Shown one piece after another: positions 52,006 through 54,504 of a stretch of DNA of 64,000 bases. Each line of letters opens with the position of its first letter. Within the stretch, counting starts at the first letter, position 1. The notes beneath the pieces are model-generated. The model saw only the letters and a program-made list of their open reading frames with translations, made no database searches and was not told the origin of the DNA. This DNA comes from Physcia stellaris (Eukaryota; Ascomycota; Lecanoromycetes; Caliciales; Physciaceae): assembly GCA_018902385.1 (NCBI GenBank), contig JABSSW010000013.1, positions 496,001-560,000 on the forward strand. The letters are read 5' to 3'. The position numbers and the translations under genes are program-made.

Positions 52006-52133
52006 GATGCAGTGCTTGGCTGGGATTGACGCCGGTGTACGGAATCGATGAGGTCCTATAGTAGTGTGTAGATGTATTTAAACCAGTTGTAGGAGAGTAG
52101 AAAGTTCGAGGAAAGTAGAAAGGGGAGTGACTA

Positions 52134-52212
52134 CTCAGGGGCGTTTTTCGGGAGTGCTCAAGCTTTGCCTACATGAGCCTAGTTTTGAGCATTCCCGAAA
52201 AACGTCCCTGAG
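52134..52212. mobile_element. 79-bp MITE with TA target duplication
   Basis: Arms of 28 bp: left begins CTCAGGGGCGTTTTTCGGGA; right is the reverse complement with two mismatches and ends ...CGTCCCTGAG. TA flanks both sides (52132-52133 and 52213-52214). The 20-odd-bp loop is unique. Stowaway-like size and target suggest a Tc1/mariner-type miniature element. It lies between the divergent IML2 and SEM1 genes. Confidence 0.75.
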
Positions 52213-52527
52213 TATCAAGAGGCGGATATCAGCATGAGGCTATGATCATTGCTGAATCTATACCGTATTCGATATGTCATTTTGCCAAGCATGCAAAGGT
52301 GCAGCTCAGTCCCGCCCAAAGTCTAGACCTCACCGGACATTTTGTTTCATGTAGAACCCTAAGGTAATGCAGGGTTCTGTAGCACACTTGCAAGTCACCT
52401 TACGCCAAGCCTTGGTTGACCCTAAGCTATGGGCTCGAGGCCTCGTTAACAACATAATTGTTTTCTTCTATCGCTCGATCAAAAAGCCCATCACACCCTT
52501 GCGTCTACTTACATAGAGCTTCGCAAG
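52213..52527. other. SEM1 promoter side of the divergent region
   Basis: About 315 bases from the 79-bp element to the SEM1 ATG. No further element seen. Confidence 0.5.
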
Positions 52528-52909
52528 ATGTCGGCCGCTGCAGAAGGTGCAACTTCCACCACCAAAGCCGTCACCTCCGATGAGACCTCGTCAACGGCAC
52601 TCAAAGACCAGCAAAAACCTGCTGCTGCACTGGAAGAGGATGATGAATTTGAAGATTTTCCAGTAGAAGGTTCGCTTACTTACCGATCAATGACCACGGG
52701 CTCGGGTGCTGATGATGAGCAGATTGGCCGCAGGAAGACGCAGAAGTACCCGGGGAGCAGAATACGCACTTGTGGGAGGAAAGTTGGGATGACGATGATA
52801 CGAGCGAGGATTTCTCCAAACAGCTAAAGTACGTTTGGAAGCCTCCCAAGCTGTCTCGGCTGATCTTTACCACAGGGAGGAATTGGAGAAAGTCAAAGCA
52901 AACAAATAG
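52528..52909 (+). CDS. SEM1: Sem1/DSS1, proteasome lid and TREX-2 subunit
   Basis: Small acidic, largely disordered subunit (Rpn15) of the proteasome lid, also in TREX-2 and recombination complexes. Exons 52528-52669, 52723-52828 and 52876-52909 give 93 aa, phases consistent. A Thr/Ala-rich start leads to the two conserved acidic/aromatic segments: EEDDEFEDFPVEDWPQEDAE and THLWEESWDDDDTSEDFSKQ, then LKEELEKVKANK. These Trp/Phe residues in an acidic context are the family signature. Slightly longer than yeast Sem1 (89 aa). Confidence 0.95.
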
Positions 52910-53077: not shown

Positions 53078-54504
53078 TTAAAGCTTGGAAGTCCTTCCTT
53101 GCAACCATCAGGCCTTCATCCGACAGTCGAAAACCCTACTTACTCGATAATGCGGATACACCAGGCAAGTCTTTGCCTTCCAGCAACTCTAAGGAGGCGC
53201 CGCCTCCTGTCGATACATGGCTAAGCTTCTCCTCTACTCCGTACTTGGCAGCAACCGTGGCAGTATCGCCTCCGCCAATGATGACAATCTTACCGTTTTG
53301 TGCAGCGTCAACAGCAGCATCCATGGTTGCTCTTGTTCCTTTCGCGAAGGCGTCAAACTCGAAGACCCCGGGCGGTCCGTTCCAGAGGATAGTCTTGGCT
53401 TCTGAGATGGTCTTCTTGTACAGCTCTATGCTCTTTTCGCCGCAGTCCAGACCCATCCAACCGTCAGGGATACCCTCCTCATCCGTTGCATACCCAGTCT
53501 TTGCGTCCTTGTCGAACTTGTCCGCTGTGATGTAATCGCAGGGCAAGACGACCTTGACGTTATTCTTCTTCGCTTTCTCTATCAAGTCGGCGACGGTCTT
53601 GCTTCCTGCCTCATCGAAAAGGCTGTCTCCAATCTTGACATTTTCCAAAGTCTTCTTGAAGGTGAAGGCCATACCTCCACAGACAATGAGGCTGTCTACC
53701 TTGGTCAACAGATTGTCAATCAATTGAATCTTGTCGGACACCTTGGCACCACCAAGTATAGCCAAGAAAGGTCTCTGGGGTTTTTCCAGCGCTTGTGCAA
53801 AGTAGTCAAGCTCCTTCTTCATCAAGAACCCAGAGGCTTTCTGTGGCAGCTCGCAACCGACCATAGAGCTGTGTGCACGGTGGGCTGTTCCGAAAGCGTC
53901 GTCTGGTCAGTTTTGGTAAGTACGTCATTCTTCGCTCGCTGAAGGAGCTGCTTCTCCTACTGATATAAATATCCCCCAACGTAGTCAGTCCTTTCCTAAA
54001 TTCGGCAACCTTCTCCTTGTCCGCTTTAACTTTCTTGCCCTCTGCATCCTTGCTACTTCCTTCCTCCTCCGCGTGAAATCTCAGATTTTCGAGGAGAATA
54101 ATCTGGCCATTGCTGGCTTTGTTGACTGTTACCTCAACCTGCTCGCCCACGCAATCGTCGGTAAAGGTGACGCTCTGTCCTAGTAACTTCTCGAGCTCCG
54201 AAACGACAGGCTTTAAGGAGTACTTTTCATTCCTCTTTCCGTCGGGACGCCCCAGGTGAGACATGAGGATGACTGCCTTCGCTCCATGTTCGCCAGCGTA
54301 CTTGATGGTAGGAAGAGCGCCGACGATCCGCTGGTTATTCGTGATCTTTTTGTCCGAGTCTAGAGGTACATTGAAATCTACCTAAATCGCGAATGATCAG
54401 CTTGAGTGAAGAAAAAACCTGGGCTGCTAAGGACGTACGCGGATCAATACTCGCTTGTCTTTGAGGTCGACATCGGTGATGGCGAGCTTGTTTGAAAGAG
54501 ACAT
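53078..54504 (-). CDS. PGK1: phosphoglycerate kinase with cryptic SKL isoform
   Basis: Glycolytic enzyme making ATP and 3-phosphoglycerate from 1,3-bisphosphoglycerate. Main form: exons 54504-54439, 54381-53961 and 53902-53136, 417 aa ending ...[10 protein letters not shown]. Motifs: [101 protein letters not shown] and the nucleotide loop [13 protein letters not shown]. The stop TAG is inside GTAAGTAG, a consensus donor. Splicing 53143-53098 (46 nt, acceptor GCAAG) joins the preceding A to 53097-53078 and gives ...LSRRTSKL, a peroxisomal PTS1. See finding. Confidence 0.95.

Follow-up and report, generated by a model that had tools for sequence, protein, structure and literature searches.

A putative cryptic intron over the PGK stop codon of Physcia stellaris predicts a peroxisomal isoform of the enzyme

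Introduction

Physcia stellaris is a lichen-forming member of the class Lecanoromycetes, and a lichen fungus is a symbiont that is fed sugars by an alga. The last codons of its PGK gene coincide with a sequence resembling a 5′ splice site, which raises the question of whether one gene could provide both a cytosolic PGK and a second, peroxisomal PGK with a C-terminal PTS1. An initial annotation of this DNA had proposed exactly that. A draft genome of P. stellaris (order Caliciales) has been published (PMC7513301), and the window analyzed here is the whole stretch of 64,000 nucleotides from a contig of 822,769 bases (C13) in a genome of 44 Mb.

PGK: Gene and Genomic Setting

A profile search indicated a single PGK locus in the genome: PF00162 matches both main exons of the gene in the window (Table 1), and nowhere else. 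The database protein of P. stellaris that is identical to this PGK (P0001) represents the cytosolic form alone, which speaks against a second isoform. Downstream of PGK, at 52132–52214, is a hairpin with 30-nt arms that are 93% complementary and a 23-nt spacer; a 111-nt query over this hairpin matched the genome 31 times, at 18 distinct sites including its own and in many cases with 88–95% identity, and the element looks like a small MITE-like repeat.

Table 1. Coordinates in the window of the PGK gene and of the features predicted around its stop codon.
Feature	Position	Strand	Description
PGK gene, cytosolic isoform	53136..54504	−	417 aa, C-terminus ALSSK-TAG; PF00162; 100% to P0001
PGK constitutive introns	54438–54382 (57 nt), 53960–53903 (58 nt)	−	From sequence
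Putative 5′ splice site GTAAGT	53138..53143	−	Covers last two PGK codons and first base of stop
Putative cryptic intron, 46 nt, GT-AG	53098..53143	−	GTAAGT...GGCCTGATGGTTGCAAG; acceptor TGCAAG, closely preceded by a candidate branch site CTGAT; sequence level
Predicted cryptic terminal exon	53078..53097	−	End of R, then R-T-S-K-L-stop once spliced; PTS1 = SKL
Candidate alternative 46-nt intron, shifted 4 nt	53094..53139	−	Donor GTAGGG (weaker), acceptor GGAAG; joins 53140 to 53093; product ...SSKTSKL

PGK: Putative Cryptic Intron Over the Stop Codon

On the minus strand, the last codons of PGK are TCG AGT AAG TAG, with the stop codon at 53138–53136. The sequence GTAAGTAG (53143–53136, minus strand) includes GTAAGT, a full match to the intronic donor consensus. 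Removal of 53143–53098 joins base 53144 to base 53097, eliminates the stop codon, and keeps the phase. The predicted C-terminus of the spliced product is ...GVSALS-RRTSKL followed by TAA (53080–53078), in which RRTSKL replaces SK-stop and the terminal SKL is a canonical PTS1; the predicted products have 417 residues with the intron retained and 421 residues when it is spliced. The initial annotation had described AGT AAG TAG inside a donor-like sequence, a 46-nt intron to a GCAAG acceptor with the phase kept, and the replacement of SK-stop by a PTS1-bearing RRTSKL-stop; this description agrees with the sequence to the base.

CTGAT is of the usual type of fungal branch site, and it is also present in PGK intron 1. 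AAG is a weak splice acceptor, and that of the cryptic intron is accompanied by few pyrimidines and almost no pyrimidine tract; such a poor acceptor would be expected if the intron mostly stays in the transcript. The weak AAG nevertheless counts against use of the cryptic intron, as does its length of 46 nt, below that of all four other introns measured (53, 57, 58, and 62 nt).

The GTAAGT donor could be used with acceptors other than the one that yields SKL, giving rise to non-peroxisomal tails or to transcripts that regulate the level of PGK, with SKL being incidental. There are 15 AGs at 25–259 nt from the donor, and a pyrimidine-rich CCTTTCCATTCTAG 102 nt from it would lead to a longer tail that lacks a PTS1. 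However, when all 15 were tested, a PTS1 resulted from the 46-nt one alone, and this AG is both the first to give an intron of more than 30 nt and the first past CTGAT; we consider it very improbable that the other acceptors account for the donor. Moving both the donor and the acceptor downstream by 4 nt gives another pair of sites that would still lead to an end in SSKTSKL (Table 1), and the PTS1 signal thus tolerates a 4-nt slip.

A peroxisomal PGK could instead be produced by read-through of the stop codon, a mechanism reported for the PGK of Ustilago maydis (as cited in PMC3798809). In P. stellaris, the frame beyond the stop codon runs for 60 residues and ends in ...GTENS, without a PTS1, whereas SKL sits in another frame, which rules out this route; in addition, the stop context is TAG GGT, whereas PMC4207609 names a UGA context in its title. 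We assign read-through a negligible probability.

A convergent gene on the plus strand (52528–52909) encodes the start of a DSS1/SEM1-like protein (PF05160, E 3e-6, under the curated cut-off), with a probable stop after ...EELEKVKANK at 52909. This stop is 169 nt short of the stop codon that follows SKL, and the SKL exon is therefore outside the coding frame of the DSS1/SEM1-like gene.

PGK: Chance Expectation

Alternatively, the arrangement could be a coincidence, in which the donor-like sequence follows from a conserved SSK-stop, the SKL codons occur in the 3′ UTR by chance, and the intron is never used. An SK end is common among PGKs (105 of the 120 best matches), and the donor could accordingly be a by-product of the protein sequence. 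We evaluated the downstream sequence with the PGK donor held fixed, by shuffling the 300 nt downstream with dinucleotides kept (n = 20,000). With the donor granted in this way, chance is able to generate a canonical PTS1 (236 shuffles), but at a rate of only 1.2%, or 0.45% for SKL itself (89 shuffles), which argues against coincidence.

In 264 kb of the genome, made up of the window and 20 stretches of 10 kb, the stop-to-stop frames with a length of at least 60 codons were also screened for the gain of [SAC][KRH][LM] through an intron of 40–120 nt spanning the stop. Such a gain was possible for 2 of the 1743 frames, which are open frames rather than genes, such that this control tests sequence and not annotation: PGK, and a frame in L032 with a poor donor. 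PGK thus has 1 counterpart in a control set of 1742 frames; of the two, PGK alone has a listed good donor, and PGK alone gains SKL. A chance origin of the SKL arrangement in PGK is unlikely.

PGK C-Termini in Other Fungi

Three protein searches, each represented by the best 120 of at least 7990 matches, provided 272 distinct PGKs. Two of the three used tailed queries, so that the sample is biased toward tailed ends and the counts are not frequencies: counted from LPG, the tail is 7 residues long and ALSSK-like in 230 PGKs, and 11 residues long in 5. Three named species among the 272 have a PTS1-like tail of 6 residues after ALS, the length predicted for P. stellaris, namely Aspergillus taichungensis (VSALSNTGSKL), A. 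californicus (VSALSTTGPKL), and Lophiostoma macrostomum (VSALSRSSSRL). The first new residue of these tails is N, T, and R, respectively, each of which can be specified by a codon that starts with A; this fits the proposed design because a phase-1 donor after A needs a codon starting with A. The remaining two proteins with 11 residues were rejected. P0150 (VSALSEKGAKL) ends in a PTS1, but a donor after A is incompatible with its first new residue (E). P0097 (VSTLSEKPRGK) lacks a PTS1.

Certain other ends were not counted. P0166 (338 aa) ends in VSALSSKL, with a PTS1 directly on the usual C-terminus. Non-canonical ends occur in P0063 (SSL), P0128 (PSL), P0145 (SSL), P0249 (FRL), P0098 (PNL), P0151 (SAM), and P0233 (GRL). 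P0063, P0128, and P0145 (Drepanopeziza brunnea, Scytalidium lignicola, and Cadophora gregata, respectively) have in common the odd end ALS(S/N)R(P/L)SK(S/P)SL, which is perhaps another tail made by splicing.

Closer to P. stellaris, the PGKs of Heterodermia (P0002, 95% identical, the closest relative among the matches listed) and Hypocenomyce (P0003, 92% identical) end in SSK, which is compatible with the donor. By contrast, the PGK of Dirinaria sp. (P0006) and two others (P0004 and P0005), all 92% identical, have an SNK end, and the GTAAGT donor is impossible in these three because the codons for N supply no GT; a shifted donor could be present in them. Loss of the SKL codons or donor in close relatives, which the initial annotation had named as part of the evidence against its proposal, is thus partly indicated by P0004–P0006, whereas Heterodermia has a compatible end. 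The SNK ends are in keeping with coincidence; on the other side are the PTS1-like PGK tails of equal length in other genera and the precedent of Aspergillus nidulans PGK (PMC3798809), and overall we regard a coincidental origin as improbable.

PGK: Proposed Mechanism

We consider it highly probable that the single PGK gene of P. stellaris gives rise to two enzymes, one cytosolic and one peroxisomal, by optional splicing of an intron that spans the stop codon. The intron would usually be retained, such that translation stops at TAG and the 417-aa cytosolic PGK is produced. In a fraction of the transcripts, the spliceosome would pair the GTAAGT donor with the TGCAAG acceptor, thereby removing the stop codon and adding RRTSKL, and the resulting 421-aa PGK-RRTSKL would be imported into peroxisomes by PEX5. 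A strong donor followed by a short intron in which pyrimidines are scarce and the AAG acceptor is weak would suit partial use. Profiles for PEX13 and PEX14 have matches in the genome.

The two-enzyme reading is favored by the anatomy of the locus together with the low chance expectation and the PTS1-like tails of the same length in Aspergillus and Lophiostoma PGKs, and these lines of evidence likewise support the claim of the initial annotation that one gene would supply both forms. For P. stellaris, we infer that the splicing occurs, how frequent it would be, and that its product would be imported and useful, with support from the dual targeting reported for A. nidulans PGK (PMC3798809 and PMC12316961).

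Other Glycolytic and Peroxisomal Enzymes

Four glycolytic enzymes were checked (PGK, GAPDH, TPI, and FBA), and a hidden PTS1 is visible in PGK alone. GAPDH is single-copy according to a profile search; the last of its introns measures 53 nt, and the gene ends in YISKVDQSK-TAA. No PTS1-like end resulted from the GAPDH donors at or upstream of the last intron, alternative terminal introns gave none from 2 donors and 20 donor–acceptor pairs (on joined exons), and read-through leads to ...SHEGF, which is not a PTS1. For the TPI gene on C25, the last exon has 1 donor and 13 pairs, of which none yields a PTS1-like end, and read-through gives none either; no PTS1 was identified in the ranges scanned for TPI on C49, or in the range scanned for each of the FBA genes on C27 and C31. 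In the FBA gene on C27, a donor-like GTATGA likewise overlaps the stop codon (GGC AAG GTA TGA GTA).

None of the routes tested gives the single GAPDH a PTS1, which counts against the two-enzyme reading in that the step before PGK is without a visible peroxisomal partner. There is some chance, albeit a small one, that peroxisomes receive PGK but not GAPDH, with PGK serving something other than the linked GAPDH–PGK redox/ATP step, or that GAPDH enters by another route.

Malate synthase and isocitrate lyase were considered as a control for peroxisomal enzymes, and no ordinary SKL protein was confirmed among them. Isocitrate lyase is present, with the gene on C3 ending in ...EDQFK, and two malate synthase profiles (PF01274 and TIGR01344) have no match in the genome. 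Malate synthase may have been lost, or it may fall in a gap in the assembly (43.97 Mb, versus 46.57 Mb published; PMC7513301).

Implications for Lichen-Forming Fungi

If the two-enzyme reading holds, the range of splice-hidden peroxisomal PGKs would come to include a lichen-forming fungus, and the deposited annotation, with its one cytosolic isoform, misses the predicted spliced form. Within the mostly open-access literature searched, we found no report on peroxisomal PGK splicing in lichens, and Freitag et al. (2012) may already include P. stellaris or its relatives. The purpose of the peroxisomal branch of glycolysis is described as still open in a review (PMC9549241), and the retention of a peroxisomal PGK in a symbiont that is fed by an alga would bear on this purpose. 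The only surprising possibility would be a PGK that is peroxisomal without a tagged GAPDH partner.

Comparison With Known Systems

The nearest parallel is A. nidulans, in which differential splicing is reported to give PGK its dual targeting (Freitag, Ast, and Boelker, 2012, Nature 485:522, as cited in PMC3798809 and PMC12316961); the initial annotation had referred to fungal precedents by splicing or read-through, and this example confirms it. The enzyme is the same, and in both fungi the peroxisomal isoform is made by splicing (as a prediction in P. stellaris) with the PTS1 hidden from the cytosolic frame. However, P. stellaris belongs to another fungal class, and the likeness concerns the mechanism; the tail residues also differ, with RRTSKL in P. 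stellaris versus NTGSKL and TTGPKL in other Aspergillus. In U. maydis, PGK acquires its signal by read-through and GAPDH by splicing (as cited in PMC3798809 and PMC12316961), and P. stellaris would share with it a cryptic PTS1 placed on a glycolytic enzyme through a post-transcriptional step, although in P. stellaris read-through of PGK is excluded and GAPDH has no signal in the routes scanned. In Yarrowia lipolytica, alternative splicing decides whether malate dehydrogenase has a functional PTS1 (Kabran, 2012, summarized in PMC3798809); there, too, splicing determines the presence of the PTS1, but the alternative introns of Y. lipolytica differ in size by 4 nt, whereas P. stellaris would either retain or remove one intron that spans the stop codon of a different enzyme. 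P. stellaris PGK is thus probably a functional case, as judged from its gene, of a mechanism already known in fungi.
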